DNA of 64,000 nt, taken from positions 1-64,000 of the forward strand of contig WFNB01000109.1 in the NCBI GenBank assembly GCA_015488755.1, written 5' to 3'. A program made the translations under genes and the position numbers. The notes under the pieces were generated by a model that saw only the letters and a program-made list of their open reading frames with translations, made no database searches and was not told the origin of the DNA. This document shows positions 24,160-41,933 of the stretch, piece by piece. Position 1 is the first letter of the stretch. Each line of letters begins with the position of its first letter. The stretch comes from Gammaproteobacteria bacterium. GTDB lineage: Bacteria > Pseudomonadota > Gammaproteobacteria > GRL18.

Positions 24160-24203
24160 ATTATCACATACGAACCTTTCACAAACCTTACAGAAACATT
24201 AAA
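24160..24203 (-). promoter_or_regulatory. Operator/promoter D of the two-component operon
   Basis: Read on the minus strand, 24203-24175 is TTTAATGTT, two bases, TGTAAGG, four bases, TGAAAGG. It has the same plan as three other sites in the window. A -10-like GATAAT follows nine bases later. It drives the Met/His-rich gene and probably the regulator and kinase genes, implying autoregulation. Confidence 0.75.
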
Positions 24204-24276
24204 TAAAATTCATGTTGTTCATAAAGGTTGCTTAGTTATCACCTATTTCTTAGTAAGGTCTATTTGCATCTTGATT

Positions 24277-24336
24277 ACGAACATTAAATATATTTAATGT
24301 TCGTGCAAGATTGGTGTTAACTTGCGGGTGTAAAAT
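24277..24336 (+). promoter_or_regulatory. Operator/promoter A of the cus operon, with a 28-bp palindrome
   Basis: 24277-24304 is a perfect 28-base palindrome with half ACGAACATTAAATA. Its right part opens the 29-base element (24293-24321): TTTAATGTT, then TGCAAGA and TGTTAAC in the two repeat positions. TAAAAT at 24331-24336 is a suitable -10. The CusC-type gene starts 40 bases further. Direct heptamers 11 bases apart and overlapping the -35 position fit activation by an OmpR-type regulator. Confidence 0.8.
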
Positions 24337-24376
24337 AGCCAGCTAATTGACATTAATAATAATTTTGGAGCATGTT

Positions 24377-25672
24377 ATGCAGTTTAGGCAAAATACTAAG
24401 CCATTGTTAAAGAAACCATTGGGTCTGATATTGGGGCTTAATTTACTGATAGCCTCTCCTTTTTCTAGCGCAGCGGTTTTAAGTTTAAGTGAAGCAGAAC
24501 AAGTGGCTTTGCAAGATGAGCCGGGTATTATTAGCCAACAATGGCAAATGCAATCCTTATCTGCTCAAGCCATTGCTGATGGTCAATTAAAGGATCCCAA
24601 GTTACAAGTTGGCTTAAATAATATACCCACCGATACCTTTAGATTTAATCAAGAGAATATGACGCAACTTAAACTGGGTATTGTGCAACAATTCCCTAAA
24701 GGTAATAGTTTGGGTATTAAGCAACAAAAAACTCAAAAACAGTCAGAACTTTTTCAATCAAGCATTTTAGAGAGAAAGTTAATGATAATAAAAGAAGTGC
24801 GTTTGGCTTATTTTGAAATTTATTATTGGGAAAAAGCCAAACAAACTATTAAGCAAAATAAACGTTTTTTCTCACAATTAGTTGATATTGTGCAATCCAT
24901 GTTTTCAGTGGGTCGTAATAATCAGCAAGACTTGATTCGGGCACAATTAGAATTGAGTCGTTTGGATGATCGCATGGTAAAAATCACCCAAAAAATTAAT
25001 GCCCAACGTTCTAAATTATCGCGTTGGATTGGCTATGAAAAGAGTAACCAACCTTTAACTACTCAACTTCCAGTATTAGCAACACCTAAACTGAGTGATG
25101 ACTTTGAGGTATTGAGCCAATTATTTTATAGCCATCCAAAAATTCAAGAAATAGATAAAAAAATAGAGATAAGTCGTAAGGATATTGAATTAGCAAAGGA
25201 AAGCTATAAACCCGGTTGGGCTTTAAATGTCGGTTATGGCTATCGAGATAATAATCCTAATGGTGCTAAGCGTTCTGATTTTCTTTCAGCAGGTGTATCT
25301 ATCGACTTACCTTTATTTACGGCTAATCGACAAGACAAAAAGTTGTTAGCAAAGGAACATCGCTACCAGTCTTTAAAAGATAAAAGAGTGGCACTACTAC
25401 GTCAATTAGTTGCTTCTTTGCAACAAGAAGTTGCGGTTGAAGAACAATTGCAAAATCGTCATCAATTGTATCTTAACTTATTGTTGCCTCAGGCAAAACA
25501 ACAAACAAGAGCATCACTCTTAGCTTACCAGTCTGACCGAGGTGATTTTTCAGATGTAATGCGTGCTTATATTGATGACTTAAATGTCAAGCTGGATGAA
25601 CGGCGCATTGCTGTGGATCATCTGAAAAGCAAAGCAAAGATTTTATATTTTACCTCCAGTTTTAATAAATAA
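24377..25672 (+). CDS. cusC: CusC-like outer membrane efflux channel (TolC superfamily)
   Basis: 431 residues from ATG 24377, which has GGAG six bases upstream; an ATG at 24347 lacks one. A signal peptide (residues ~15-34) ends near Ser-Ser-Ala-Ala. Two repeated long helical regions follow, typical of outer-membrane factors: Gln-Leu-Lys-Leu-Gly-Ile-Val-Gln-Gln-Phe-Pro-Lys-Gly in the first and Leu-Asn-Val-Gly-Tyr-Gly-Tyr-Arg in the second. It forms the trimeric outer-membrane exit duct for the adaptor and RND pump encoded next. No lipobox Cys is seen, unlike E. coli CusC. The outer-membrane role is secure; the cus identity rests on the neighbours. Confidence 0.85.
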   Translation: MQFRQNTKPLLKKPLGLILGLNLLIASPFSSAAVLSLSEAEQVALQDEPGIISQQWQMQSLSAQAIADGQLKDPKLQVGLNNIPTDTFRFNQENMTQLKLGIVQQFPKGNSLGIKQQKTQKQSELFQSSILERKLMIIKEVRLAYFEIYYWEKAKQTIKQNKRFFSQLVDIVQSMFSVGRNNQQDLIRAQLELSRLDDRMVKITQKINAQRSKLSRWIGYEKSNQPLTTQLPVLATPKLSDDFEVLSQLFYSHPKIQEIDKKIEISRKDIELAKESYKPGWALNVGYGYRDNNPNGAKRSDFLSAGVSIDLPLFTANRQDKKLLAKEHRYQSLKDKRVALLRQLVASLQQEVAVEEQLQNRHQLYLNLLLPQAKQQTRASLLAYQSDRGDFSDVMRAYIDDLNVKLDERRIAVDHLKSKAKILYFTSSFNK

Positions 25673-25710
25673 TAACTGGTTAGAAACAAGAATAAATTGA
25701 GGATTTTAAT

Positions 25711-27477
25711 GTGAACAAACTTCTAAGTGGTTTTATTTTGCTCAGCGGCGGTATCGTAGCTGGTTATTATGGGCAACCTTTCTTACAGCAACAACTTGAA
25801 TTGGCGGGTGTTATTTCAGCTCAAGAGTCAGCAGGAGGGGCTAAAGCAAGTGGTGAAAAGGAAGTTGCCTATTGGGTTGCTCCTATGGATGCTAATTACC
25901 GCCGAGATAAACCAGGTAAATCCCCTATGGGCATGGACTTAGTGCCTTTTTATAAAGATGATGATGCCGAAGAGGGTGTGGTTAAAATTTCTCCTGTAGT
26001 ACAAAATAATTTGGGTGTACGAGTCAGTCGGGTAAAAAAAGGACAGCTTGAGCGAGAAATCAACACCGTTGGCTATGTTAATTTTGATGAAGAAAAACTC
26101 TATCATTTGCATACCAGAGTTGAAGGTTGGGTGGAACGACTGGATGTAAAAGCAACCGGTGATATAGTTAAAAAAGGTCAAAAATTATTTGAGCTGTATA
26201 GTCCCACTTTGGTGAATGCTCAAGAAGAGTATGTCACTGCATTGAGGAGCCAAAATCGTATTCTAATTAAGGCATCAAAAGATCGTCTATTATCCTTAGG
26301 CTTAACCCAAGGGCAAATTTCACAATTAAAAAAAACACGTAAAATACAACAACGTATTGCTTATTTTGCTAAGCATGATGGCTTTATTCAAGACTTAAAA
26401 ATTCTTGATGGTATGTTTGTAAAACCATCAATGAATGTCTTAACTATTGGTCAAATTGATAGTGTTTGGGTCATTGCTGAAGTCTTTGAACGTCAAAGTG
26501 GTTGGGTTAAAAAAGGACAAACTGTTGATATGAGCGTTGAAGCCTTTCCAGAAAAAAATTGGAAAGGTATTGTCGATTATATTTATCCTGTTTTGGATAA
26601 AAAAACTCGTACTCTACGAGTACGCATCCGTTTTAATAATCCAGAACAACTATTAAAGCCCAATATGTTTTCTCGTTTAATCATCCATAGTAGTTTTAAT
26701 AAAAATGCCTTATTTGTGAAACGTGAAGCTATTATTCGCAGTGGTGGTATTGAACGTGTTGTAAAAGCTTTGGGTGAAGGTAAATTTCAATCAGTTGCAG
26801 TGAAAACAGGCAATGAAAGTGGCCAGTTTATTGAAGTTGTCAAAGGTCTAAAAGAAAATGACCAAGTGGTTAGCTCGGCGCAGTTTCTTATTGACTCAGA
26901 ATCCAGTTTGACAGCCTCGTTTGAACGTATGGAAGAACCTGATGATATGAGTGCTATGGATATGGGTGATAGTGATAAACAAGCAAGTCAAAATCAGGTG
27001 TGGATTGATGGTGAGATCATTGACATTATGCCTGCTCATAATATGTTAACGATACAACATAAAGCGGTATCTGCTTGGGGCTGGCCGGCAATGTTAATGG
27101 ATTTCCCAGTTAAAAAGAGTCTTCCTCTGGATAATTTAAAAGCACAACAAAGCATTCGTTTTTTAGTTGAAAAACATGATGATGGTTCTATTGAGCTCAT
27201 TGATATTGACGGTTTATCTGAGCAAGAAAAAAGCAAAATAAGTAATCAGACATGGATTAAAGGAAAAATACTAAAAACCATGCCTGCGATGCAAACATTG
27301 ACTCTTGAACATGAACCTGTCGAAGCTTGGGGCTGGCCTGCCATGAAAATGGATTTTCCAGTAATTGCCACAATGGACTTAAGTACTTTTAATGAAGGGG
27401 ATGAATTTAATTTCCTAGTAAAGAAAAACAGTGATGGTTCCATTGAAATCATTGAAATGAATAGAGAGGGATTGTAA
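25711..27477 (+). CDS. cusB: CusB-like RND adaptor with two C-terminal CusF-like copper-binding domains
   Basis: 588 residues, GTG start behind TTGAGGA. Order: membrane/signal segment (1-22), heavy-metal-binding motif Tyr-Trp-Val-Ala-Pro-Met-Asp with Pro-Met-Gly-Met-Asp-Leu-Val-Pro (about 49-80), the adaptor's barrel-sandwich and hairpin region (about 90-400), then two tandem CusF-type domains. Each carries His, Trp and two Met in the CusF order: Ala455-Trp-Gly-Trp-Pro-Ala-Met461-x-Met, and Ala539-Trp-Gly-Trp-Pro-Ala-Met545-x-Met. In E. coli CusF is a separate periplasmic chaperone; here two copies are built into the adaptor, which is 100-200 residues longer than usual. It links the inner pump to the outer duct and likely hands over Cu(I)/Ag(I). 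Confidence 0.92.
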   Translation: MNKLLSGFILLSGGIVAGYYGQPFLQQQLELAGVISAQESAGGAKASGEKEVAYWVAPMDANYRRDKPGKSPMGMDLVPFYKDDDAEEGVVKISPVVQNNLGVRVSRVKKGQLEREINTVGYVNFDEEKLYHLHTRVEGWVERLDVKATGDIVKKGQKLFELYSPTLVNAQEEYVTALRSQNRILIKASKDRLLSLGLTQGQISQLKKTRKIQQRIAYFAKHDGFIQDLKILDGMFVKPSMNVLTIGQIDSVWVIAEVFERQSGWVKKGQTVDMSVEAFPEKNWKGIVDYIYPVLDKKTRTLRVRIRFNNPEQLLKPNMFSRLIIHSSFNKNALFVKREAIIRSGGIERVVKALGEGKFQSVAVKTGNESGQFIEVVKGLKENDQVVSSAQFLIDSESSLTASFERMEEPDDMSAMDMGDSDKQASQNQVWIDGEIIDIMPAHNMLTIQHKAVSAWGWPAMLMDFPVKKSLPLDNLKAQQSIRFLVEKHDDGSIELIDIDGLSEQEKSKISNQTWIKGKILKTMPAMQTLTLEHEPVEAWGWPAMKMDFPVIATMDLSTFNEGDEFNFLVKKNSDGSIEIIEMNREGL

Positions 27478-27479
27478 CT

Positions 27480-30400
27480 ATGATTGCCTCTATTGTTCAT
27501 TGGTCTATTAAAAATCGATTTTTTGTCATTCTTTCAGCGTTGGTCATGCTTGGTTTTGGGATTTATTCGGTTAAACAAACACCCATTGATGCCTTGCCCG
27601 ATCTTTCGGATGTGCAAGTTATTGTTAAAACTTCTTTTCCCGGTCAGGCACCTCAGGTTGTGGAAGATCAAGTAACCTATCCTTTGACTACTGCTATGCT
27701 ATCAGTACCTAAAGCAGTAACGGTACGTGGCTACTCTTTTTTTGGTGATTCATTTGTTTATGTGATTTTTGAAGAGGGTACCGATCTTTATTGGGCACGT
27801 TCAAGAGTATTAGAATATTTAAGTCAGGTTGCTTCTTCTTTACCACCCAGTGCCAAGTCACAACTTGGCCCTGATGCTACGGGTGTTGGTTGGGTCTATG
27901 GTTATGCTCTGGTTGATAAAACAGGTAAAACAGACATTAGCCAATTACGCAGCTTACAAGACTGGTTTTTACGCTATGAATTACAAACAGTTCCGGGGGT
28001 GTCAGAAATAGCAACCATTGGTGGTATGGTGAAACAATATCAGATCATTGTAGATCCAGAAAAATTAAGAGCCTATAACATCCCGTTAGATTTAATAAAA
28101 AAAGCGGTTAATTTAGGGAATCAAGAAACGGGTGCTTCTGTTGTTGAAATGGGTGAAGCAGAATATATGGTAACTGCTACAGGTTATCTTTCAAGTGTTG
28201 ATGATATTAGAAAAATCCCTCTAGGCTTAAATAAGAATGGCACCCCCGTACAATTAAAAGATGTTGCTGAAGTGATTACCGGACCACAAATGCGTCGTGG
28301 TATTGCTGAATTAAATGGTGAGGGAGAAGTGGTTGGCGCCTATGTGGTCATGCGTTTTGGTGAAAATGCTCAAAAAACCATTGATTTGATCAAAGAAAAA
28401 TTAGAAGTTCTTAAACAAGGTTTACCTGAGGGAGTGGAAATTATTCCTACCTACGATCGCTCAACATTAATTAGTCATGCAGTTGATAATCTTTATGAAA
28501 AACTTATTGAAGAATTTGTTGTTGTGGTACTTATTTGTGCTATTTTCTTATTCCACTTTCGCTCATCCTTAGTCATTATTTTTAGTCTGCCTATTGGTAT
28601 TCTTGGTGCTTTTATTATTATGCATGCTCAGGGATTAAATGCCAATATTATGTCTTTGGGAGGTATTGCCATTGCTATTGGTGCTATGGTAGATGGGGCC
28701 ATTGTTATGGTGGAAAATGTCCATAAACACATTGAAAAAACGCCCTTAACAGATGAAAATCGTTGGCAGATCATTGCTGAGGCATCGGTAGAAGTGGGGC
28801 CACCTCTATTTTTCTCATTACTTATTATTACCATGAGTTTCTTACCTGTCTTTAGTTTGGAAGCACAAGAAGGAAAAATGTTTGCTCCTTTAGCCTTTAC
28901 TAAAACCTATGCTATGGCAATGGCTGCGGGTTTATCCATTACTCTAGTACCGGTTCTTATGGGTTATTTTGTTCGGGGAAAAATTTTACCAGAACATAAA
29001 AATCCAGTTAATCGTGTGGTGACATGGTTCTATAATCCAATCATAAAAACAGTATTAGATGCCCCTAAAACCATGATTTTTCTAGCAGGTCTTGCCTTGG
29101 CTATTGGTTTGTGGCCAGTCACTCAAATTGGTAGTGAATTTATGCCTCCTTTGGATGAAGGTGATTTAATGTATATGCCAACAACCTATCCGGGTATTTC
29201 AATTGGTAAGGCCAGAGAATTATTACAACAAACGGATAAGCTTATTAAAACAGTTCCAGAAGTTAAAACAGTATTTGGTAAAATTGGTCGAGCTGAAACA
29301 GCCACCGATCCGGCACCTTTGACCATGATTGAAACGGTTATTCAGCTAAAACCTAAAAGTGAATGGCGTGCAGGTATAACAACTGAAAGTCTGCGTAAAG
29401 AATTTGATAATTTAGTTAAGTTTCCAGGTGTCACTAACGCATGGGTTATGCCTATAAAAACACGTATTGATATGCTGGCTACTGGAATTAAAACACCCGT
29501 TGGTATAAAAGTATCAGGTCCTGATTTAAAAGAGATTGAAAAAGTTGGTAAGCAATTAGAATTGGTGTTAAAGAATGTTGCAGGAACGGCTTCTGTTTAT
29601 TCTGAGCGAGTTGCTGGCGGACGCTATATTAAAGCAGACATTGATCGAGACAAGGCTGCTCGTTATGGTTTAAATATTGCCGATATTCAGAAAGTCATTA
29701 TGACCGCTATTGGAGGTATGCGAGTGTCAGAATCTATTGAAGGATTGGAGCGCTATCCGATTAATATTCGTTATCCCCAAAGTTATCGTGATTCAGTGGA
29801 AAAAATACGTCTTTTACCTTTGGTAACAAAATCAAACCAACGTATTGCCTTAGCTGATGTTGCTGATATTAATGTGGTTGATGGCCCACCTGCGATTAAA
29901 AGTGAAAATGCTCGCTTAAATGGTTGGACATTAGTGGATATTGATGGTCGTGACTTAGGTTCTTATGTGGCAGAAGCACAGCGTGTGGTTGCAGAGCAAG
30001 TTAAATTACCTGCTGGATATTCGATTGCATGGTCAGGGCAATATGAGTATATGGTACGAGCAAAAGAGCGTTTAAGTGTTGTTCTACCTCTTACCCTAGG
30101 TATTATTATGTTATTACTATACATTAACTTTAGAAATGTCATTGAAGTGATGATTATTATGGGAACTTTACCCTTTGCCTTAATCGGTGGCTTCTGGTTA
30201 ATGTATCTTATGGATTTTGATATGTCAGTAGCGGTCGGTGTTGGCTTTATTGCACTTGCGGGGGTAACGGTAGAGATCGGTGTTCTAATGCTGGTTTATT
30301 TGAATCACTCCTATTGTAGCTTTTCGCATAAGGCACAAGAAGAAAATCGTTGCCTGACTGCGGATGATGTTAAACAAGCGGTTATGGATGGTGCCGGTCA

Positions 30401-30650
30401 AAGAGTACGTCCAATTGTTATGACTGTAGCCGCTATTATCGTTGGTTTAGTACCCATTATGTATAGTGATGGTACGGGATCAGAGGTAATGCAACGCATA
30501 GCCGGCCCTATGATTGGTGGTATGTTAAGTTCAGTGGTACTGACTTTATTAGTGATACCCGCTATTTATTATCTATGGAAATCGGTTACTCTGGGAAAAT
30601 GCCCATTGCCTGAAAATCATTCACAACAAGAAAATCATAAGGAGGGATAG
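27480..30650 (+). CDS. cusA: CusA-type heavy-metal RND efflux pump
   Basis: 1056 residues, a full-length RND transporter with 12 membrane segments and two large periplasmic loops. It starts two bases after the adaptor stop. The segment Trp-Val-Met-Pro-Ile-Lys-Thr-Arg-Ile-Asp-Met-Leu-Ala-Thr-Gly-Ile-Lys-Thr-Pro-Val-Gly closely follows the CusA/SilA type and differs from the CzcA type found later in this window. Asp in the membrane relay is seen in Gly-Ala-Met-Val-Asp-Gly-Ala (about residue 405). It uses the proton gradient to expel Cu(I)/Ag(I) from periplasm and cytoplasm. The substrate is inferred from the family signature and the CusF domains next door. Confidence 0.93.
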   Translation: MIASIVHWSIKNRFFVILSALVMLGFGIYSVKQTPIDALPDLSDVQVIVKTSFPGQAPQVVEDQVTYPLTTAMLSVPKAVTVRGYSFFGDSFVYVIFEEGTDLYWARSRVLEYLSQVASSLPPSAKSQLGPDATGVGWVYGYALVDKTGKTDISQLRSLQDWFLRYELQTVPGVSEIATIGGMVKQYQIIVDPEKLRAYNIPLDLIKKAVNLGNQETGASVVEMGEAEYMVTATGYLSSVDDIRKIPLGLNKNGTPVQLKDVAEVITGPQMRRGIAELNGEGEVVGAYVVMRFGENAQKTIDLIKEKLEVLKQGLPEGVEIIPTYDRSTLISHAVDNLYEKLIEEFVVVVLICAIFLFHFRSSLVIIFSLPIGILGAFIIMHAQGLNANIMSLGGIAIAIGAMVDGAIVMVENVHKHIEKTPLTDENRWQIIAEASVEVGPPLFFSLLIITMSFLPVFSLEAQEGKMFAPLAFTKTYAMAMAAGLSITLVPVLMGYFVRGKILPEHKNPVNRVVTWFYNPIIKTVLDAPKTMIFLAGLALAIGLWPVTQIGSEFMPPLDEGDLMYMPTTYPGISIGKARELLQQTDKLIKTVPEVKTVFGKIGRAETATDPAPLTMIETVIQLKPKSEWRAGITTESLRKEFDNLVKFPGVTNAWVMPIKTRIDMLATGIKTPVGIKVSGPDLKEIEKVGKQLELVLKNVAGTASVYSERVAGGRYIKADIDRDKAARYGLNIADIQKVIMTAIGGMRVSESIEGLERYPINIRYPQSYRDSVEKIRLLPLVTKSNQRIALADVADINVVDGPPAIKSENARLNGWTLVDIDGRDLGSYVAEAQRVVAEQVKLPAGYSIAWSGQYEYMVRAKERLSVVLPLTLGIIMLLLYINFRNVIEVMIIMGTLPFALIGGFWLMYLMDFDMSVAVGVGFIALAGVTVEIGVLMLVYLNHSYCSFSHKAQEENRCLTADDVKQAVMDGAGQRVRPIVMTVAAIIVGLVPIMYSDGTGSEVMQRIAGPMIGGMLSSVVLTLLVIPAIYYLWKSVTLGKCPLPENHSQQENHKEG

Positions 30651-30654
30651 TCTG

Positions 30655-30963
30655 ATGATATACAATAAAGTGGTTATGATTATGAATATTACTGACTATC
30701 AATTGATCAGTGATGAAATAAAAAACTTGAAGATACCGGGAGTAACAGTCAGTAAAGTAGAAGGTTTTGGTGATTATATTAATGAATTTAATAACCAAGG
30801 CTTGTGTGATAGTTTAAAAATTGAAATTTATACTCATGCACAACAGGCTGAAAAAATTGCTTCAAACTTATCTCTGCTAGCAATTAATATGACCGAAGGT
30901 GGGGGACTGGTTGCTATTGAACCGGTGTTGAATTTAATGAATGTTAAAAAATTAATCGCTTAA
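30655..30963 (+). CDS. PII-like (P-II superfamily) protein in the cus operon
   Basis: 102 residues with ferredoxin-like PII features: Val-Ser-Lys-Val-Glu-Gly-Phe-Gly-Asp near residue 32 (the start of the T-loop region) and the C-terminal Val-Ala-Ile-Glu-Pro-Val-Leu-Asn-Leu-Met-Asn-Val. The T-loop is very short and lacks the Tyr uridylylation site of GlnB/GlnK, so it is not a classical nitrogen regulator. A strong AAGGAGG lies eight bases before ATG, and the gene is four bases after cusA. PII relatives of the so-called PII-NG type are known beside CusA/CzcA-type pumps. A regulatory or metal-sensing role on the pump is inferred. Confidence 0.8.
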   Translation: MIYNKVVMIMNITDYQLISDEIKNLKIPGVTVSKVEGFGDYINEFNNQGLCDSLKIEIYTHAQQAEKIASNLSLLAINMTEGGGLVAIEPVLNLMNVKKLIA

Positions 30964-30982
30964 TTTTATATTGGAGAGTTAA

Positions 30983-31540
30983 ATGAGAATAATTGCAATT
31001 TTAACCACTATTGGTTTGATTTTAGGTGGTTTGCTTATTTGGTTTGGTGTGTTTAATGTCGCTGCTACGGATAAACATTTTGTCGGTACGGTGAGCTTTC
31101 TTGAAATGGTTCGGGAACGTTCTATTGATGTTCGAGCGAATACTATTGAAGTACCTGACTTGAATAATGAAGAACTCATTAAAGAAGGTGCTGCCTACTA
31201 TGCTGAAATGTGTACCGGATGTCATTTAGCCCCAGGTATTGATGAGTCAGAACTTCATTCAGGCTTATACCCACAACCTCCTGTTTTTACTGATACTGAC
31301 TATACTAATACACCGCAAGCACAATTTTGGGTGATAAAAAATGGCTTAAAAATGACTGGAATGCCTGCTTGGTCACCTGCTCATACCGATGAACAAATAT
31401 GGGCTATGGTGGCTTTTTTAGCGAAAATCAAAGGCTTAAATATTGCTGAATATACTGAGTTATCAAAGGAAACAGGAGAGGGGCATTCTCATGGTGGTAC
31501 AAGTGATCACAATGTAGAAGAGCATGAACATAATCATTGA
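30983..31540 (+). CDS. Membrane-anchored c-type cytochrome with His-rich tail
   Basis: 185 residues: N-terminal membrane helix (about 3-24), then one class I cytochrome c domain with Cys77-Thr-Gly-Cys80-His81 and a likely axial Met in Lys-Met-Thr-Gly-Met-Pro-Ala-Trp. The end is His-rich (Gly-His-Ser-His-Gly-Gly and Glu-His-Glu-His-Asn-His). It sits 19 bases behind the PII-like gene, so it is part of the efflux transcript. A periplasmic electron carrier in a copper-efflux operon could oxidise Cu(I) or feed an oxidase; this is speculation. The tail could bind metal. The domain call is firm. Confidence 0.87.
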   Translation: MRIIAILTTIGLILGGLLIWFGVFNVAATDKHFVGTVSFLEMVRERSIDVRANTIEVPDLNNEELIKEGAAYYAEMCTGCHLAPGIDESELHSGLYPQPPVFTDTDYTNTPQAQFWVIKNGLKMTGMPAWSPAHTDEQIWAMVAFLAKIKGLNIAEYTELSKETGEGHSHGGTSDHNVEEHEHNH

Positions 31541-31587
31541 TGTGTTATTTTTATGCTGTGTTTTTAAATTTATAAAGATTAAATATC

Positions 31588-31632
31588 TTTAATGTTCAAG
31601 TAAGTCTCTTGTAAGGTTCTATGTCATATACT
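31588..31632 (+). promoter_or_regulatory. Operator/promoter B before the Met-rich protein gene
   Basis: 31588-31616 repeats the 29-base plan: TTTAATGTT, then AGTAAGT and TGTAAGG as the spaced heptamers. A -10 TATACT (31627-31632) begins ten bases later, exactly as in site C at 41.9 kb. The Met-rich gene starts about 70 bases downstream. Confidence 0.78.
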
Positions 31633-31701
31633 GAACTCAAGTTAACTAATTAACTTAAATTTATTACTGACAAATTAATTATTTCCTTTAGGAGAACTAA
31701 A

Positions 31702-32130
31702 ATGAAAAATCAAATAAAAAGCACATTAAAAATGACGACAGGTTTTGCCTTAGCTGCCTTGCTATCATCAGCCACATTAGTTTATGCCAATGGTGATCAT
31801 GATCATTCTAGTGGACAGTCAAATGGTATGCAAATGTCTTCAATGTCGGGTGATATGAAAAGCAAAATGTCTAAAATGAAAGCAGACATGACCGCGATTC
31901 AAAATGAAAATGATCCTAAAAAGCGTAAAGCAATGATGAAAGCACATATGCAGGACATGAAGTCAATGATGGGCATGATGAAAGATAAGCGTTCTAAAAT
32001 GCAAGGTAAAATGGATAAAATGAAACAGCTTGAAGCAAGGGTTGCTATGATGGAAGCCATGATGGAACAAGTAATGGATACTCATATTACCTCACTTGAT
32101 CCTAATGATCCTGTTTATAAATTAGATTAA
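31702..32130 (+). CDS. Met-rich periplasmic protein (putative copper-binding)
   Basis: 142 residues: signal peptide (about 1-29, ending Val-Tyr-Ala-Asn), a short His stretch (Gly-Asp-His-Asp-His-Ser), and then a long helical region crowded with Met and Lys (more than 25 Met, repeated Met-Lys-x-Met and Met-Met-x-x-Met). No known domain. Thioether-rich helices of this kind bind Cu(I)/Ag(I) in CopK-, CueO- and SilE-like proteins. It is expressed from its own operator B promoter and closed by a good terminator. A periplasmic metal sponge or chaperone is the natural reading, inferred from composition and regulation. Confidence 0.75.
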   Translation: MKNQIKSTLKMTTGFALAALLSSATLVYANGDHDHSSGQSNGMQMSSMSGDMKSKMSKMKADMTAIQNENDPKKRKAMMKAHMQDMKSMMGMMKDKRSKMQGKMDKMKQLEARVAMMEAMMEQVMDTHITSLDPNDPVYKLD

Positions 32131-32143
32131 TAGATTGACTTAA

Positions 32144-32169
32144 AATCCCATTCTCAGAATGGGATTTTT
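32144..32169 (+). terminator. Rho-independent terminator after the Met-rich gene
   Basis: AATCCCATTC / GAATGGGATT (32144-32153 and 32157-32166) is a perfect 10-bp stem with a three-base loop, followed by T residues. It separates the Met-rich gene from copA. Confidence 0.9.
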
Positions 32170-32189
32170 CTTTCTAGGGCTAAAAATTG

Positions 32190-32229: not shown

Positions 32230-35200
32230 ATGACAGATAAACAAACAAATAGTTATCATATTCATATTGATGATATGAGTTGTGATCATTGCGTAGGAAA
32301 AATAAAAGAAATTGCTTTAGCTATAGAAGGTGTTCAAAGTATTGATGTTTCTTTAGAAAAATCTGAAGCGATTGTTCAAGGTGGTTTAGCTCATGAAGTT
32401 ATTCAGGCAATCACTGAAATTGGTTATCCTGCTAGTCCTGTGGCAGATATTCCCGATAACTGTCCTGTAGAAGATATGACTAAAAATGAGCAACAATCTG
32501 ATGTATCACTATCACCTTCAGAACAAAACTATATAATTAGTATTGATGATATGACCTGTTCTAGTTGTGTCTCGACTGTCGAAAAGGCCATATTATCTGT
32601 TTCTGGTGTGACTTCTGGTTCGGTTAATTTATTAGAAAAAACAGCTTTGGTGTCAGGTGGTGAGCCGCAAGATGTAGTGAATGCTATTATTGATCAAGGT
32701 TATGCTGCTAAACTTCAACAGAGAAAATTGACCTCTAGCAAAGAATATTACTATATTGCTATTGATGATATGACCTGCTCTAGTTGTGTCTCCACCGTTG
32801 AAAAAGCAATTTTATCGGTTGCTAATGTAACACAAGGAAGTGTTAATTTATTAGAAAAAACTGCTCAGGTACTTGGTGGCGAGCCACAAGAGGTCATTAA
32901 TGCTATTATTGACCAAGGTTATAATGCTCGTTTACTAGCACAACAACACATTGATAATACCTATTATATCAGTATTATTTCTTCAGAGCTTTCTACTAAT
33001 ACAGAGCATGAATCATTAAAAGCTGAAGTAGAACAAGTATTTGTTAATAATAAAGAAGTGAGCGATATACAGTTTGTAGGATCAGAATCGGACATAAAAA
33101 ATTTAAGTCTGCAACTTAAAAGTACATCACATCCAGCTCAAATTTTAGTTTGGTTAAAAAAAGCAGGCATTATTGCACAGATCAATGAACAATATGAAGA
33201 TCCCTATTTAGAGCAATCGAGAAAAAGTAAACTGGAAGTAAAACGCTCTTGGCAACGTGCCATTCTAGCAGGGACGGTTGGTGCAAGTCTTATTCTGGGT
33301 GATAAACTGGCTTGGTTTCCTGAATTAGGTACACAAGACAGTCTATTAGGCTTAAGTGCTCAAGCATTCTGGTTTTTAATTGCTCTATTATGCTTGTTTA
33401 CTATGTGGTTTAGTGGCCGTAACTATTATGCAACAGCAATAAAACAAGCGAAACATTTTTCCTCTAATATGGATACTCTGGTTGCGTTAGGAACATCAGC
33501 TGCTTGGTTATCATCCCTATTAATTATTATTGATCCTGAATTTATTCCTGGTGGTGGTGGCCATTTATACTTAGATGCTGGAGTGATTATTCTGGCTTTT
33601 TTACAGTTTGGTCATGCCTTGGAAATAAAAGCAAAACGTACCACCAGTGCTTCTATTGCCAGTATTGTTGAGCTAGCACCTAAAACAGCCAATGTGGTTT
33701 ATAATGATACGGATGTCATTTTACCGGTATCGTTATTGCGGGTAGGTGATAAAATTCGAGTTAAGCCCGGAGAACGTATTCCTATAGATGGTATGATACT
33801 AGAAGGCTCCTCGGCAGTAGATGAGTCTATGTTGACAGGAGAACCTATTGCAGTTAAAAAAACAGTCAATGATAATGTTACAGGCGGTACCATAAATAAG
33901 TCAGGTAGCTTTATTTTTTCTGTGAATAAAATGGGTGAAGAAACCACACTTTCCCAAATTATTAATATGGTTAAGCAGGCACAAATGACTAAACCTGCTA
34001 TTGGACGCTTGGTTGATAAAATTGCTTCTGTTTTTGTACCTATTGTGATTAGCATTGCAATTATTACCTTTTTCGTCTGGTTTTTTGTTGGCCCCGATCC
34101 ACAATTAGCCTACGCGTTAACGGCTGGTATTGCCGTTTTGGTTATTGCTTGTCCTTGTGCTTTGGGCTTGGCGACACCCATTGCTATTATGATGGGGACA
34201 AGTCGAGCGGCACAGTTGAATATTTTAATTAAAAACAGTGATGCCTTACAAACAGCCAGTACGCTCACGCATGTTGTCGTGGATAAAACGGGTACGTTAA
34301 CACAAGGAAAACCAGCAGTGACTTCGATTGTCATTAATTCTGAATTAACGACAGAAGAGGCAATGGATGAAACAAGGCTATTACAATTAGCTGCTTCACT
34401 AGAGACAAATTCGGAGCATCCTTTAGCAGAAGCTATATTAAAAGCGGCCTCTGAACGAGATATTAGTCCCTTGGCTATTGATGATTTTCTAGCAGTCGAA
34501 GGGCGTGGTGTTCAAGCGATGATACAGGGTAATTTGGTGCTATTGGGAAACCTTGCTTTTATGAAGGAAAATTCAGTGCTTGTGGGATCACAAATAGAGA
34601 AACAGGCAGAACAATTAGCTGAAGCTGCTGCAACGCCTATCTGGTTAGCTCGCAATAATGATTTACTGGGCTTAATGGCGCTTAAAGATCCTATTCGAGA
34701 AGATACCCCCAATGCCGTTAAATTATTACAAGATAGAGGTATTACCGTAGTTATGTGTTCTGGTGATGCTCATAAAACAGCCAAGGCTGTTGCGGATGAA
34801 TTGGCTATTAAGGATATGCATAGTCAGGTGATGCCAGAAGATAAATTAAATATTATTAAGGCTTTACAAGATCAAGGCTACTTGGTTGGTATGGTTGGTG
34901 ATGGCGTTAATGATGCACCTGCTTTGGCTCAGGCTAATACCGGTTTTGCGATTGGTAGCGGTACGGATGTTGCCATTGAAAATGCAGATATTACCTTAGC
35001 GGGTAATTCATTAATGAATGTGGGCACAGCCATTGCGGTATCAAGTGCTACGATGAAGAATATTAAACAAAATCTATTTGGTGCTTTTATTTATAATATT
35101 GTTGGCATTCCTTTGGCTGCAGGTTTATTTTATCCCCTAACGGGCTGGTTGTTAGCCCCTGCATTTGCTAGTGCTGCTATGGCGATGTCATCGGTAACGG

Positions 35201-35241: not shown

Positions 35242-35247
35242 TTTATT

Positions 35248-35420: not shown

Positions 35421-35459
35421 AAAATTATAAGTCTTTGAATTATAGATGTTTATACTTTT

Positions 35460-35508
35460 GTAACTTTTTGATGGTTGGCCGGCACGGTGTGGTTTGCTGA
35501 GTAGTTAC
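35460..35508. repeat. Family B-related repeat fragment, inverted relative to 21403
   Basis: GTAAC at the left and GCTGAGTAGTTAC at the right enclose 49 bases whose reverse complement matches 21403-21452. Together with the full family B copy and the family C end beside it, it makes a nest of element remnants between copA and the next gene. Confidence 0.7.
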
Positions 35509-35513
35509 TATTT

Positions 35514-35535
35514 CAGTTATCCAGAACTCAGGTTA
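35514..35535. repeat. Solo end of repeat family C
   Basis: CAGTTATCCAGAACTCAGG at 35514 matches the right end of the element at 55691-55901 (one mismatch over 22 bases). No left partner lies nearby, so it is a remnant. Confidence 0.65.
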
Positions 35536-35554
35536 GTTTAACAATGGCCTGATT

Positions 35555-35821
35555 TTAAGGATAAGTAATTTCTAAAGGGTCAATTTGCCCCATATTAGAG
35601 GATTGATAAGAAGGGAAGGCATAGTGCTTTCCCTTCTTGTTTTTGCTCGCTTTTATATTTACATTTTTTCCAGAGGTGAGCTTTAATAATTTAATCTCAT
35701 TTTGTTGTTTTTTTATAATATGCCTAAGACGCTTAATCTGGGCATCTTGCTCGTTACCATAAGCAGATGAAGCGAATAAACATATAGAGATAACAATAAA
35801 TACGATTGCTCGTTGCATCAT
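35555..35821 (-). CDS. Small secreted protein with a short coiled coil
   Basis: 88 residues, unrecognised. A signal peptide (1-22, ending Ser-Ser-Ala-Tyr-Gly) is followed by a charged heptad-like helix (Ile-Lys-Arg-Leu-Arg-His-Ile-Ile-Lys-Lys-Gln-Gln-Asn-Glu-Ile-Lys-Leu-Leu) and a basic tail. It is the last gene of a leftward unit after flgP and flgT (26 bases behind flgT). Position suggests a periplasmic accessory of the flagellar outer-ring proteins, but nothing in the sequence proves that. Confidence 0.6.
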   Translation of the reverse strand: MMQRAIVFIVISICLFASSAYGNEQDAQIKRLRHIIKKQQNEIKLLKLTSGKNVNIKASKNKKGKHYAFPSYQSSNMGQIDPLEITYP

Positions 35822-35847
35822 TCACTAAGCCTTTTTAAGTGAGATTG

Positions 35848-37128: not shown

Positions 37129-37157
37129 TTTATTATACCCAAGCCAGTAAACATAAG

Positions 37158-37709
37158 TTAATCAGCATAATAGATCACTTGAGGAAAAGCCATACCTTGG
37201 CAATCAGGGTTGCAGTTAAGGCGACTTTCAGGGTACTCAGCTAAGGGGTATTGGCTGGTCATTGTTGTTTGTTTGCTTATGCAGGAATTACTTAAATCAT
37301 TTAAGCATTGGCTGTTATAATGAGATAAAATGAGCTCCACTTCTGCTTCATAAATATCATTTCCCTTTGGCGTAATACTCAGCAAATGGACACCTCGAAC
37401 GACGGAATCAAAATAAGCCCGATAGCTATCATTTTCAATAACCATGTCTCGAATGGTGGTATTGCCCTTAAGTCGAGTGCCATATAATTGCTCAACAATT
37501 GAGCGATAAGCATCTAATTTTGCTGCCCGCATAGCCAAAAGGCGCTGCTGGGCTTTAGGATAATTTTTAAATTGGCTAAGAGTGGCATAGCCAACAGCGG
37601 TAATTTTTTGTGGTGTGACTATTGTGGGAGAATGAACAAGGCTAGATGTCGTGTGACAGGCTGAGATCAATAGTACCATAAAGGTGATGATAAAATAGTT
37701 GCTAAACAT
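37158..37709 (-). CDS. flgP: FlgP-like LPP20-family outer-membrane lipoprotein
   Basis: 183 residues. Lipoprotein signal with lipobox Leu-Ile-Ser-Ala-Cys at residues 14-18. The LPP20 domain shows Thr-Ala-Val-Gly-Tyr-Ala-Thr and Gln-Arg-Leu-Leu-Ala-Met-Arg-Ala-Ala-Lys-Leu-Asp-Ala-Tyr-Arg-Ser-Ile-Val-Glu-Gln-Leu-Tyr-Gly. In Vibrio and Campylobacter FlgP forms part of the outer-membrane disk or ring that supports the sheathed or polar flagellum. First gene of the leftward flgP-flgT-small protein unit. Confidence 0.85.
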   Translation of the reverse strand: MFSNYFIITFMVLLISACHTTSSLVHSPTIVTPQKITAVGYATLSQFKNYPKAQQRLLAMRAAKLDAYRSIVEQLYGTRLKGNTTIRDMVIENDSYRAYFDSVVRGVHLLSITPKGNDIYEAEVELILSHYNSQCLNDLSNSCISKQTTMTSQYPLAEYPESRLNCNPDCQGMAFPQVIYYAD

Positions 37710-37812
37710 GTCTGTTTTCCTGATTTAAAATTATGAATTATCTGTCTTATCGGCATATAATTGGAAAGCTTTAATTTATCCATCTCAATCTCAATAATGA
37801 AAAGGAATTCTA

Positions 37813-38232
37813 ATGAAAAAAATACTATGTGTTATTTTCTTGCTTGCTTGTCCCCTCACTGCGTGGGCAGAGCGTCATATTCATGTTAATGGTGAACACC
37901 TTAATTTAGAAACCATGCTTATGATGGATCAAATTTTTGGTTATCAGGTTGATGATGGTTATTACTGGCTTAATACGCAAACAGGTCAATGGGGTTATGA
38001 AAACAATAATGAAATACAAGGGACTGTACAAATGGTTATTGATTATCAACAAGAGCAGGCAAGTTACAATAATAATTCTTATCAAGATGATTATAATGAG
38101 CAGAGCAATACCAGCTATTATCCAACAGAAATTAATAGCTCTCAAAATGGCAGTGTTGTTAGTGGTACTCTAAATGGACAAAATTGCACCTTTGTTTCTG
38201 TCGGTGGTATGACAGTAAAAGACTGTGATTAA
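37813..38232 (+). CDS. Secreted Tyr/Asn/Gln-rich hypothetical protein
   Basis: 139 residues. A clear signal peptide (1-19, ending Thr-Ala-Trp-Ala) and AAGGAA before the ATG. The mature part begins with Leu-Glu-Thr-Met-Leu-Met-Met-Asp-Gln-Ile-Phe-Gly-Tyr and a Gly-Tyr-Tyr-Trp-Leu-Asn-x-x-Thr-Gly-Gln-Trp-Gly-Tyr unit, then a low-complexity Asn/Gln/Tyr/Ser stretch, and ends with a Cys pair (Asn-Cys-Thr ... Lys-Asp-Cys-Asp) that could form a disulfide. The Trp-Leu-Asn/Trp-Gly-Tyr part resembles short secreted proteins of unknown function. Divergent from flgP. Confidence 0.65.
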   Translation: MKKILCVIFLLACPLTAWAERHIHVNGEHLNLETMLMMDQIFGYQVDDGYYWLNTQTGQWGYENNNEIQGTVQMVIDYQQEQASYNNNSYQDDYNEQSNTSYYPTEINSSQNGSVVSGTLNGQNCTFVSVGGMTVKDCD

Positions 38233-38322
38233 TAAGAGAGACCAAAAAGATACTTTCATAAGCATTCTTTTTCCTATATTCTGTGCGCAGTTTTTACTAT
38301 TTCCCTAGAGTGAGCTTTATTT

Positions 38323-40224
38323 ATGTCGATTTTTTCTATTGATGGCCTGAGTCTGGCCTTTGGAACCCATGTATTATTGAATGGTGCCAGTTTTTCCTTA
38401 GAAATGGGTGAACGTGTGTGTTTAATTGGCCGTAATGGTACGGGTAAAACCACTCTGATGCGTCTTATTCAAGGTGAAATGCAAGCTGATGAAGGCGATG
38501 TCAGAAAAAAAGATGGTCTTATTGTCTCATCCTTATCCCAAGAAGTACCTCATGAAGCCAAAGGCAGTGTGTTTGATATTGTTGCTTCTGGTCTGGGTGA
38601 AACGGCACAATTATTACAAGACTATAATCATGTCTTACATGATGTTGCCAATGGTGATGAACAAGCATTGAAAAGAATGGAACAGATTCAACATAAATTA
38701 GAAGCAGTAAATGGCTGGTCACTGGTGCAACGTGTTGAGTCTACTATTTCTAAATTATTATTAAACCCAGATGATCGTATTGAAGATATGTCTGGCGGTC
38801 TTAAACGTCGGGTTATGCTGGCCAAAGCTCTGGTTATTGAACCGGATATTTTAATGCTGGATGAGCCAACCAATCATTTAGACATAGAATCGATTCTCTG
38901 GTTAGAAACCTTTTTAAAATCCTACAATGGTTGTGTATTATTTATCACCCACGATCGGGTCTTTTTACAAAATGTTGCCACACGTATTCTTGAATTGGAT
39001 CGAGGGCAATTAGTCTCTTTTCCTGGCGACTATCAAACCTATTTACGTCGTAAAGAAGAATTACTTCACGCCGAAGAAAAAGCCAATGAACTTTTTGATA
39101 AGAAATTAGCAGATGAAGAAGTTTGGATACGTCAGGGCATTAAGGCTAGACGAACCCGTAATGAGGGGCGTGTGCGTGCTTTAAAAGCTATGCGCACTGA
39201 GCGTAGTCAACGAATCGAACAACAGGGCAAAGCAAAGCTTGAATTAGATGATAAAAAAAATTCAGGTAAGTTAGTTGTTGAAGTTGAGAATATCTCTTAT
39301 GAGTATGACAATAAGCCCATTGTTAAAAATTTCTCAACAGTGATTATGCGTGGTGATCGTATCGGCATTATTGGTCCTAATGGTGTGGGCAAGACCACTA
39401 TGCTGAACTTAATTTTAGGGCAATTAGCACCCCAGTCCGGTACTGTTAAGCTAGGCACAAAACTAGAAATTGCTTATTTTGATCAACTAAGAAACCAGTT
39501 GGATGAAGAGCAGTCGATTGTCGAAAACATTGGGCAGGGTCGGGAGTTTGTTTCTATCAATGGCCGTGACCGCCATGTGTTTAGCTATTTAAGAGATTTT
39601 CTTTTCTCTTCAGAACGAGCCAAAGTGTCGGTTAAAGCCCTTTCAGGCGGTGAAAGAAATCGTTTGCTCTTAGCAAAATTATTTACCAAGCCCGCCAATT
39701 TGTTGGTCCTTGATGAACCTACCAATGATTTAGATAGTGATACTTTAGAATTATTAGAGTCACTATTAATGGACTATAAGGGTACCTTAATTATTGTCAG
39801 TCATGATCGATCCTTCCTTAATAATGTGATCACTAGCTCCTTAGTTTTTGAAGATGATGGTTTGAATGAATATGTTGGTGGCTATGATGATTGGCTTAGA
39901 CAAAGAAAGCCAATAGCGATAGAAACACAAAAAAAAGACCTCTCAAAACTGACAGATAACAAAGTGAACACTCTTGCTGCTGCGAATAAAGTAATAAAAC
40001 TAAGTTATAAAGAACAACGTGATTTAGATAACTTGCCCCAAAAAATAGAAACAATAGAAGCTGAACAAGCAGAGTTAGAAACAATCATAGCTCAACCTGA
40101 ATTTTATCAGCAGGATCAAAGCACCATTACCAGTCAGCTGGCTAAATTAGAAGAAATTAATCAGCACTTGGAAGGCTTATATGAACGTTGGGACGAATTA
40201 GAAGAAAAGAGAGCCGGCAGTTAA
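38323..40224 (+). CDS. uup: ABC-F ATPase, Uup type
   Basis: 633 residues with two ABC domains and no membrane part. Walker A motifs are Gly-Arg-Asn-Gly-Thr-Gly-Lys-Thr near residue 36 and Gly-Pro-Asn-Gly-Val-Gly-Lys-Thr near 352; signatures are Met-Ser-Gly-Gly-Leu and Leu-Ser-Gly-Gly-Glu; Asp-Glu-Pro-Thr-Asn-His-Leu-Asp and Asp-Glu-Pro-Thr-Asn-Asp-Leu-Asp are the Walker B ends. The charged linker between them and the C-terminal coiled coil (about 555-630) are Uup-like. It acts on ribosomes and, in E. coli, limits precise transposon excision. A tRNA-Ser gene lies 81 bases downstream. Confidence 0.93.
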   Translation: MSIFSIDGLSLAFGTHVLLNGASFSLEMGERVCLIGRNGTGKTTLMRLIQGEMQADEGDVRKKDGLIVSSLSQEVPHEAKGSVFDIVASGLGETAQLLQDYNHVLHDVANGDEQALKRMEQIQHKLEAVNGWSLVQRVESTISKLLLNPDDRIEDMSGGLKRRVMLAKALVIEPDILMLDEPTNHLDIESILWLETFLKSYNGCVLFITHDRVFLQNVATRILELDRGQLVSFPGDYQTYLRRKEELLHAEEKANELFDKKLADEEVWIRQGIKARRTRNEGRVRALKAMRTERSQRIEQQGKAKLELDDKKNSGKLVVEVENISYEYDNKPIVKNFSTVIMRGDRIGIIGPNGVGKTTMLNLILGQLAPQSGTVKLGTKLEIAYFDQLRNQLDEEQSIVENIGQGREFVSINGRDRHVFSYLRDFLFSSERAKVSVKALSGGERNRLLLAKLFTKPANLLVLDEPTNDLDSDTLELLESLLMDYKGTLIIVSHDRSFLNNVITSSLVFEDDGLNEYVGGYDDWLRQRKPIAIETQKKDLSKLTDNKVNTLAAANKVIKLSYKEQRDLDNLPQKIETIEAEQAELETIIAQPEFYQQDQSTITSQLAKLEEINQHLEGLYERWDELEEKRAGS

Positions 40225-40305
40225 CATAGTCTGGTTTTTTTGAATACAGATGAGCAATAAATTTACTTGATTTATTTAGCCAAGTAGTTTATTCTCCCCA
40301 ACCTT

Positions 40306-40393
40306 GGAGAGGTGGCCGAGTGGTCGAAGGCGCACGCCTGGAAAGTGTGTAAACCGTAAGGTTTCGGGGGTTCGAATCCCCCCCTCTTCGCCA
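40306..40393 (+). tRNA. tRNA-Ser (GGA anticodon)
   Basis: 88 bases with CCA encoded. The acceptor stem GGAGAGG pairs with CCTCTTC, the anticodon loop CTGGAAA gives GGA, a long variable arm (AAACCGTAAGGTTT) marks a class II serine tRNA, and the T arm is GGGGGTTCGAATCCCCC. Discriminator base G is as expected for Ser. Confidence 0.97.
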
Positions 40394-40592
40394 CATTAAT
40401 TACTATCAACTATTCACCGCATTATCCTGCACCAACATTTTTTATTTTCTACACTCTCACCTTTAGTCAGTCTAACTCGATTAATAATAATTTTATAAAT
40501 TAGTGATATTTCTAGTTTACTCGCTATACTTAAGTTATACCTCAAATACCTTATTGGCATCCTATATCACTGCTTGAAATATTAATAATATT

Positions 40593-41879
40593 ATGATGAT
40601 GAATAAGAATCTTTTTAAAAGCTTAAATTATCTGTCATTGGCCTTTATCTTTTTTTGGACATTAGCTCTTGGTGGCCTATTCTTTTGGGCAGAGACTAAA
40701 GAAGAAGCTCATGTTATTGAATACGCTAAAAAAGAAGCTCGGGCAAATTTTAATAAAGACATTGCTTTACGTAATTGGGTAGCCCAACGTGGCGGCATTT
40801 ATGTAAAAGTTTCGGAACAAACACCACCTAACCCCTATTTATCCCATATCTCTAATCGTGATATCAAATTACCTTCTGGAGAGACTTTAACTCTGATGAA
40901 TCCTGCCTATGTATTGCGAGAAACCATGGAACAATATGGTGAACTTTATGGTATAAAAGGTCGTATAACCAGTCTCAAACCGCTTAATCCGATCAATACC
41001 CCCGATGCATGGGAAAGAAATAGACTCGTAGAATTTGAAAAAGGAGAGCTAAGTGAAGTCTATGAAGTCAGTAATATTAATAAAAAACCTTTTTTACGTT
41101 ATATGAAAGCATTTGTAACGGTACCGAGTTGTTTGCTCTGCCATGCTCATCAAGGTTATGTGGTTGGTGATATAAGAGGTGGTGTTGGGGTATCTATCCC
41201 CTTAGAGCCCTATTTGAAACTAAAAAGAGATACCATTGAAACCTTACAAATATCTTATGGTTCATTATGGCTATTAGGTTTGTTTATTATTGGCTCTATC
41301 TATCGTGTGGGTAGAAATAGTATTAGCCACCAATATGCGATTGAAAAGAAATTACTGATTGCTCATCAACAAGCTCAGGAAATGGCCGAACATGATGGGT
41401 TAACTGGGCTTGCTAATCGCCGCTTATTAGCAAAAGTTCTGCATCAGGAATTTAAACGTGCGGTTCGAAATCAGCATCACTTAAGTGTGCTAATGTTAGA
41501 TATTGATCATTTTAAACACTTTAATGATACTCATGGTCATCTATTGGGTGATGAAGTTTTAGTGCTTGTTGCCGATGCTATTCAAACTTCTTGTCAACGA
41601 CCTAGTGATTTTATAGCGCGCTTTGGCGGTGAAGAATTTATTATTATTTTACCACAAACAGATTATCATGGTGCGTATAAACAAGCCGAAAAAATTCGTA
41701 AAAAAATTGCCACATTATGTATCGAAAATAATAATATGGGATTTTCTGTGTCAATTACGGTCAGTATTGGTATTGATTCACGTATACCACAAAAATTGCA
41801 AACACCAGAAGAGCAAATAAATCATGCTGATCAGGCACTATATAAAGCAAAAGAACAAGGTAGAAATCAAGTTGTATAA
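40593..41879 (+). CDS. Diguanylate cyclase with periplasmic heme-binding DUF3365 sensor
   Basis: 428 residues. Membrane helix about 14-32, a DUF3365 (Tll0287-like) domain to about residue 220 that carries a c-type heme motif Cys180-Leu-Leu-Cys183-His184, a second membrane helix (about 225-243), and a cytoplasmic GGDEF domain with intact Gly-Gly-Glu-Glu-Phe and an Arg-Pro-Ser-Asp inhibitory site upstream. The layout points to a redox or gas signal in the periplasm controlling cyclic-di-GMP synthesis. Start: the ATG codons at 40593 and 40596 are equivalent. The gene stands alone on its strand between the tRNA and the copper-regulon gene. Confidence 0.9.
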   Translation: MMMNKNLFKSLNYLSLAFIFFWTLALGGLFFWAETKEEAHVIEYAKKEARANFNKDIALRNWVAQRGGIYVKVSEQTPPNPYLSHISNRDIKLPSGETLTLMNPAYVLRETMEQYGELYGIKGRITSLKPLNPINTPDAWERNRLVEFEKGELSEVYEVSNINKKPFLRYMKAFVTVPSCLLCHAHQGYVVGDIRGGVGVSIPLEPYLKLKRDTIETLQISYGSLWLLGLFIIGSIYRVGRNSISHQYAIEKKLLIAHQQAQEMAEHDGLTGLANRRLLAKVLHQEFKRAVRNQHHLSVLMLDIDHFKHFNDTHGHLLGDEVLVLVADAIQTSCQRPSDFIARFGGEEFIIILPQTDYHGAYKQAEKIRKKIATLCIENNNMGFSVSITVSIGIDSRIPQKLQTPEEQINHADQALYKAKEQGRNQVV

Positions 41880-41888
41880 TTACACATA

Positions 41889-41933
41889 TTTAATGTTGAT
41901 GTAAGGTTAGTGCAAGGTAGCCTGTCGTATACT
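41889..41933 (+). promoter_or_regulatory. Operator/promoter C before the secreted 116-residue protein gene
   Basis: 41889-41917 is the cleanest copy of the element: TTTAATGTT, then TGTAAGG and TGCAAGG 11 bases apart. A -10 TATACT (41928-41933) begins ten bases later, as in site B. It lies about 17 kb from the regulator genes. Confidence 0.8.

Follow-up and report, generated by a model that had tools for sequence, protein, structure and literature searches.

A conserved four-half-site operator and the predicted metal-stress regulon of a CusR/AgrR-type two-component system in one family of Gammaproteobacteria

Four promoters in a 64,000-nt stretch of a gammaproteobacterial genome (GenBank assembly GCA_015488755.1, contig WFNB01000109.1, positions 1 to 64,000 of the forward strand; hereafter the window, with a G+C content of 38%) share one sequence element, which raises the question of what this element is, which protein reads it and which genes it controls. 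A first-pass annotation made from the letters alone had described it as a 29-base layout at 24175-24203 (minus), 24293-24321, 31588-31616 and 41889-41917; these coordinates and strands are correct, and all four copies carry TTTAATGTT. Here, we report that the layout is part of a 44-bp operator that is far from chance and is real, specific and conserved, and that very probably serves as the activator operator of a CusR/AgrR-type two-component system encoded at 21640-23780, driving a metal-stress regulon.

The operator was derived from an alignment of 39 non-redundant sites (four from the window and 35 from relatives), which remained when 58 sites with full flanks were subjected to greedy clustering (72% identity over 90 bp). 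It starts with a 6-4-6 inverted repeat (AACATTAAATATATTTAATGTT), which is followed by two further in-phase half-sites. TTTAATGTT and TGTAAGGTT are copies of one nonamer (T.TAA.GTT). Positions 1-9, 12-20 and 23-31 are therefore three direct repeats with a step of 11 bp, and the layout consists of one inverted and three direct half-sites (<-- --> --> -->). The left arm was outside the search pattern; positions -13 to -6 read AACATTAA, and in the 39-site alignment all of them but one carry 1.0-1.7 bits, the exception being C at -11 (0.5 bits). This upstream inverted arm, of the AACATTAAA type, belongs to the element and its conservation equals that of much of the search pattern. A simple two-heptamer PhoB-like box can be ruled out, since conservation extends to the upstream arm, which played no part in the choice of sites. 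Together, AACATTAA and TTTAATGTT give a 22-bp inverted repeat, AACATTAAATA/TATTTAATGTT, which is perfect at S2 (sites S1 to S4 are listed in Table 1); the palindrome of S2 is not a separate feature but the best-preserved of the window's four copies of the common left arm. The consensus 6-4-6 core is ATTAAANNNNTTTAAT, with ATTACA and TGTAAT as natural variants. The 29-base layout therefore exists, but its inverted left arm and the repeat identity of TTTAATGTT had been overlooked, and the heptamers of the TGTAAGG type are present as described but loose in two sites (24293: TGCAAGA/TGTTAAC; 31588: AGTAAGT/TGTAAGG).

The position of the operator relative to the promoter is also conserved. A -10 hexamer starts 9 or 10 bases past each 29-mer, as had been noted, and in 67 of 81 sites collected from the family the best TATAAT match lies 7 or 8 bases past column 44, a spacing that played no part in their selection. 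In a consensus scan for promoter-like pairs, none of the 60 listed (of 83 found) ended at the four -10 boxes, so that these have no matching -35 among the pairs listed. Divergent pairs of promoters have one inverted-repeat centre in common, with direct repeats to both sides (e.g., G001:C257:5066-5125 and G006:C30:1910-1969).

The specificity of the element was examined in the own genome (G000; 3,525,292 bp in 122 contigs), in the family (24 genomes) and beyond. The 28-mer TTTAATGTTNNTGTAAGNNTNNTGTAAG, with up to three mismatches, has four matches in G000, all of them in the window, and its reversed control has one; a looser pattern, TTTAATGTTNNNGNAAG, has five exact matches, the fifth within coding sequence. 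A held-out model made from the 35 relatives' sites only, with the window sites left out, was used to score 150 of 4,441 first-look candidates and ranked the four window sites 1-4 in G000. They were followed by a weaker fifth site at C107:21560-21599 (E 4.7e-5), upstream of a paralogue (62-64% identity) of Sec118, the 118-residue secreted protein encoded after S4, then by mirror matches on S2 (5.4e-5) and S3 (0.018), and by unrelated matches from E 0.26. Many matches at random positions of the genome, which had been named as grounds for abandoning the idea, were thus not observed: four strong sites and one weaker site all stand before plausible targets. Within the family, the TTTAATGTTNNTGTAAGNNTNNTGTAAG pattern gave 62 matches in 15 of the 24 genomes (three for the reversed control). 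A class-wide draw of 369 genomes was scanned with a model that includes the window's sites and with stricter filters, the class being used since the order-level set consists of the same 24 genomes; none of the 365 genomes outside the family matched at E<=1e-5, and three of the four family members listed in the draw did.

The genes behind the operator in relatives give an indication of its role. A weight-matrix scan of fetched loci (score at least 24) yielded the 81 sites, a few of them counted more than once where contigs overlap; a partial match at L081:7172 (score 24.0) was removed by hand. Each target was classed by the best BLAST hit of open reading frames starting within 330 bases of the site. 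A recognised class follows 69 of the 81 sites: Sec118 (21), CusC (10), Met/His peptide (9), small SHOCT-like protein (6), Met-rich protein (6), DUF411 (5), cytochrome c (4), porin-like protein (3), LapG (2), Cu-ATPase (2) and response regulator (1, where a Met/His peptide gene also comes first). The 12 unclassed sites, several of which are near contig ends, include those before START-domain and DUF4399 genes, a second cytochrome and a Met-rich repeat protein. By our reading, CusC, Met/His peptide, Met-rich protein, DUF411, Cu-ATPase and the response regulator are metal-linked, which gives 33 of the 81 sites, with 21 for Sec118 and 15 for other recurrent classes; an enrichment of sites upstream of further metal genes, as predicted, is therefore found among relatives in the fetched DNA.

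The regulator gene beside S1 belongs to the OmpR family and its neighbour encodes a sensor kinase, both with best NCBIfam matches to heavy-metal families (Table 1). A match to this response regulator of at least 80% identity is present in 12 of the 24 genomes (one incomplete); sites at E<=1e-5 occur in every one of these 12, compared with 3 of the 12 others. Among the 5000 best records of a tblastn search of plasmids, the response regulator had only relatives of less than 60% identity. In seven genomes (G000, G001, G004, G006, G012, G014 and G019) a site precedes the operon carrying the regulator. These two observations support the link to an OmpR-type regulator that had been proposed for the window.

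The geometry of the operator is that of the AgrR, CusR and HprR boxes. According to excerpts of the work on AgrR, the silver-resistance response regulator of Cupriavidus metallidurans, its box is the 6-4-6 repeat ATKACANNNNTGTMAT; some operators also have in-phase direct repeats, and the position is type II at most promoters. There, mutation of the inverted repeat nearly abolishes activation and mutation of the direct repeat largely affects it (PMC7380067). The operator described here shares with that account the 6-4-6 inverted repeat (ATTAAANNNNTTTAAT versus ATKACANNNNTGTMAT), extra in-phase direct half-sites (two units at 11-bp steps), a better conserved promoter-proximal arm, the type II position, predicted autoregulation and metal-resistance targets. 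It differs in that two further direct half-sites stand in the consensus, making a 44-bp four-half-site array, and in that Sec118 proteins and LapG are among the targets. The boxes excerpted for Escherichia coli are CATTACAAAATTGTAATG for CusR/HprR (PMC9302797) and AAAATGACAAnnTTGTCATTTT for CusR (PMC11195947), and the present operator has a similar 18-bp inverted repeat with nearly the same half-site (CATTAAATATATTTAATG), at a cus operon and a regulator gene. For CusR of E. coli, a perfect palindrome and a very restrictive regulon are described (PMC11195947); here, a genome can have as many as 11 matches at E<=1e-5. A GTAAT-type second half-site and a divergent intergenic operator are shared with the Pseudomonas CopR/CusR/CzcR boxes, for which the same excerpts mention no three-fold direct repeat (PMC11195947). 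TTTAAT as the commonest half-site and the standing array of four half-sites seem to be new; searches of the open-licence literature found no description of this array. Given this agreement in layout with the AgrR and CusR/HprR boxes, and the positions and targets of the sites, the assignment to a metal regulon is well supported.

Several observations weigh against it. The two proteins fall below the cut-offs of their best models: the response regulator scored 258.8 bits with TIGR01387 (cut-off 279.2; best of 97 NCBIfam models matched) and 242.1 bits with the CusR equivalog NF007346 (cut-off 420), and the kinase 177 bits with TIGR01386 (cut-off 292.55; best of 81 models). The co-occurrence of regulator and sites (Fisher two-sided p 3.4e-4) ignores relatedness among the genomes. 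The half-site letters differ from the TGTMAT excerpted for AgrR, the consensus being TTTAAT; the G of the TGTAAT type is found at position 2 in 13% of sites, and the C of the ATTACA type at position -6 in 28% (weighted). Three site-bearing genomes (G018, G022 and G023) have no close regulator, perhaps owing to fragmented assemblies. In G003, which has 11 matches at E<=1e-5, the sole close regulator match is truncated to residues 75-225, and an interruption of about 2 kb splits the kinase (L152:7142-11110). In G002 and G009, the genes behind the strong sites are Sec118 genes and lapG, and the fetched DNA around the regulator has no site scoring at least 15; the regulon is apparently rewired in these two genomes, and G009 has one weaker site (26.5) before a DUF4399 gene. 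The perfect palindrome AACATTAAATATATTTAATGTT precedes the cusC homologue of G017 (L038:6922) with no direct repeats and no close regulator detected, perhaps as an ancestral or differently read form, and G016, with a regulator of 72% identity, has no more than a single weak site, which stands before a DUF411-like gene. As a separate observation, sites in G002 and G009 often have a slightly different direct repeat, TTTAAGGCT (L079, L080, L088, L089, L153, L154, L160 and L046/L104; the regulator is in L165 and L166).

These exceptions allow the operator to be real and its main binder to be another OmpR-type protein, such as a paralogue in the own genome (C89:3619-4284, 55% identical) or a regulator of the PmrA/QseB type, with the neighbouring pair merely one target. 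The direct repeat TGTAAGGTT resembles the PmrA box CTTAAGGTT, and the sites lacking a close or complete regulator (G018, G022, G023 and G003) or standing apart from it (G002 and G009) would fit. We consider this unlikely, given the strong sites in all 12 genomes with a close regulator, the seven in which a site precedes its operon, the AgrR-type 6-4-6 layout and the lack of any site scoring at least 15 in the fetched DNA around the C89 paralogue (L151). It is less likely still that the element is a composite, with a different and possibly global factor on the AT-rich 22-bp palindrome and the regulator on the two TGTAAGG repeats only. The bare palindrome of G017 would suit such an arrangement, but the right arm of the palindrome keeps the register of the direct repeats and has the same sequence (T.TAA.GTT), and the arrays of divergent promoters are symmetric about the palindrome centre. 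Moreover, one protein serves both kinds of repeat in the excerpted AgrR study (PMC7380067). The last alternative, chance similarity in AT-rich DNA or recently copied paralogous promoters, could draw on the low G+C content of the window and on near-copies among some relatives' sites (e.g., at tandem Sec118 genes); it is scarcely credible, being contradicted by the pattern controls, the held-out scan, the scan outside the family and an operator common to the 39 clusters described above.

For the CusR/AgrR-type system, we infer activation of type II by a phosphorylated CusR-like regulator. The kinase would sense periplasmic metal, most likely Cu(I) or Ag(I); the phosphorylated regulator would occupy the 6-4-6 inverted repeat, extend over the -35 region by filling both direct half-sites downstream, and recruit RNA polymerase. 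The genes turned on would be its own operon, Cus efflux, the Met-rich protein and the secreted Sec118 proteins.

In the window, the four sites do precede the Met/His peptide-regulator-kinase operon, the cus operon, the Met-rich gene and a secreted-protein gene, as annotated (Table 1). The Met/His peptide has no match in Pfam or NCBIfam at E<=0.001. When the CusB-like adaptor was scanned against the genome contigs, a single relative was found (43%). S3 is unlikely to drive the Cu-ATPase gene at 32230, because a terminator-like hairpin of 12 pairs lies between. A second heavy-metal RND operon (44100-50042, with a CusA/CzcA-family pump at 46839-50042) has no operator copy scoring at least 15. Certain Met-rich secreted proteins of relatives (L069:970-1413(-), L161:1900-2343(-), L162:1541-1984(-) and L026:4489-4905(-)) end in the Sec118 tail of the VFKWDENADEYQLQ type, a C-terminal tag common to otherwise unrelated proteins; the Met-rich protein of the window is without it.

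Table 1. Operators, -10 boxes, genes and terminator-like hairpin of the window (PWM, position weight matrix score; E, held-out model)
Feature	Position	Strand	Evidence or remark
Sensor histidine kinase	21640..23058	-	best NCBIfam TIGR01386 cztS_silS_copS
OmpR-family response regulator, proposed binder	23100..23780	-	best NCBIfam TIGR01387 heavy-metal response regulator
67-aa peptide, Met/His-containing tail, membrane segment by eye	23911..24114	-	first gene past S1; homologues follow operator in relatives
-10 of S1, GATAAT	24160..24165	-	read from sequence
Operator S1, 44 bp	24173..24216	-	left arm AACATGAA, then TTTAATGTT / TGTAAGGTT / TGAAAGGTT; PWM 52.0; E 1.3e-8; Met/His peptide-regulator-kinase operon promoter
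Operator S2	24280..24323	+	perfect 22-bp inverted repeat AACATTAAATATATTTAATGTT, then TGCAAGATT + TGTTAAC; PWM 50.0; E 1.1e-9; cus operon promoter
-10 of S2, TAAAAT	24331..24336	+	read from sequence
Outer-membrane efflux protein (CusC-like)	24362..25672	+	PF02321
CusB-like adaptor fused to two CusF domains	25711..27477	+	HlyD_D23, CusF_Ec x2, HMBD
CusA/CzcA RND pump	27480..30650	+	TIGR00914 1248.8 bits, above cut-off 701.45
P-II-like small protein	30655..30963	+	PF00543
Cytochrome c, His-rich tail	30983..31540	+	homologues with own operator in G003, G019, G021, G023
Operator S3	31575..31618	+	left arm AAGATTAA; PWM 47.8; E 4.0e-8; Met-rich gene promoter
-10 of S3, TATACT	31627..31632	+	read from sequence
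Met-rich secreted protein, S3 target	31702..32130	+	position after S3
Intrinsic-terminator-like hairpin, 12 pairs	32142..32168	+	between S3 unit and Cu-ATPase at 32230
Operator S4	41876..41919	+	left arm ATAATTAC; PWM 47.5; E 6.1e-9; promoter of secreted-protein gene (and probably lapG)
-10 of S4, TATACT	41928..41933	+	read from sequence
Sec118, 118-aa secreted protein, S4 target	41984..42340	+	NNPPAAG, C-terminal tail VFIWDETADEFQLQ; putative LapG substrate or decoy
LapG-like periplasmic cysteine protease, next gene past Sec118	42502..43164	+	Pfam Peptidase_C93, NF045674

The gene of the secreted protein 17 kb away does follow an operator, as had been stated; with 21 of the 81 sites before genes of its kind, the most for any target class in the fetched DNA, it is not an outlier but a recurrent member of the regulon. 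Sec118 occurs in 19 of the 24 genomes, often in several copies of about 105-130 residues with an N-terminus that by eye is signal-peptide-like. It belongs to no Pfam family: the window protein has no match, and 30 members gave scattered matches no better than E 0.0024. A third, divergent copy in the own genome (C108:64663-64953, 41% identity) lies on a contig with no held-out-model match, like the copies in operator-free genomes. The gene after Sec118 in the window encodes a LapG-like protease, which exceeds the cut-off of Pfam Peptidase_C93 (63.3 versus 27) and falls below that of the LapG equivalog NF045674, its sole NCBIfam match (183.4 bits versus 320). A diguanylate cyclase gene (40593-41879) lies directly upstream of the Sec118-lapG unit, which fits a neighbourhood of cyclic di-GMP and adhesion genes.

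In the sources excerpted here, the consensus of a LapG substrate is a targeting helix, DP and then [T/A/P]AAG (PMC13090378), and a di-alanine mutation of the LapG site is described (PMC6890996). To collect Sec118 members in the fetched loci, we used queries that ended before the motif. Near the C-terminus, 31 of 34 distinct sequences have [PTA]AAG and 32 have P[PTAS]AAG (background open reading frames, 2 of 160); the exceptions to [T/A/P]AAG are one SAAG, one PATG and one broken C-terminus. The alignment of operator-linked Sec118 genes omits one of the 21 (L076, broken C-terminus). The residue pair before the motif is mostly NP, not DP, the C-terminal tail is present in 29 of 34 by eye, and a helix at 82-91 in a poor AlphaFold model (pLDDT 58.9, pTM 0.23) is a hint only. 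At retention-module loci, [TA]AAG stands at the expected place in 14 of the 15 translated, of 29 matches. In G001, G003 and G015, no more than about 0.9 kb separates lapG from a Sec118 gene; the majority of Sec118 copies lie elsewhere. In G002 and G009, lapG homologues are directly preceded by their own operator. Across the family, 16 genomes have both Sec118 and LapG, 3 Sec118 only, 1 LapG only and 4 neither (Fisher p 0.014).

Sec118 resembles the LapG/LapA system, as far as excerpted (PMC13090378 and PMC6890996), in the order of a possible helix, xP and [T/A/P]AAG and in a LapG-like protease that is adjacent or under the same operator. It differs from LapA in not being an adhesin, in being short with a signal-peptide-like N-terminus, and in having mostly NP instead of DP. 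That Sec118 carries the LapG cleavage motif and adjoins lapG suggests a metal-induced LapG substrate or decoy. From these sequence features, we tentatively propose, as a possibility that is rather doubtful at present, that the metal-stress regulon may directly control LapG-dependent adhesin release, with Sec118 proteins as secreted LapG substrates or decoys (helix-NP-[PTA]AAG). If so, Sec118 would compete with a large adhesin for LapG, and metal-stressed cells would stay attached; alternatively, Sec118 would be cut by LapG, releasing the conserved C-terminal peptide of approximately 20 residues.

For the family, these results provide a precise, testable operator code for a probable metal-response regulator, in which an inverted-repeat box is extended by direct repeats into an array of four half-sites and mirrored at divergent promoters. 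They also place several families of unknown function, including Sec118, the Met/His peptide, DUF411 and small SHOCT-like proteins, in a regulatory context, and suggest that copper stress is linked to LapG-controlled surface attachment.

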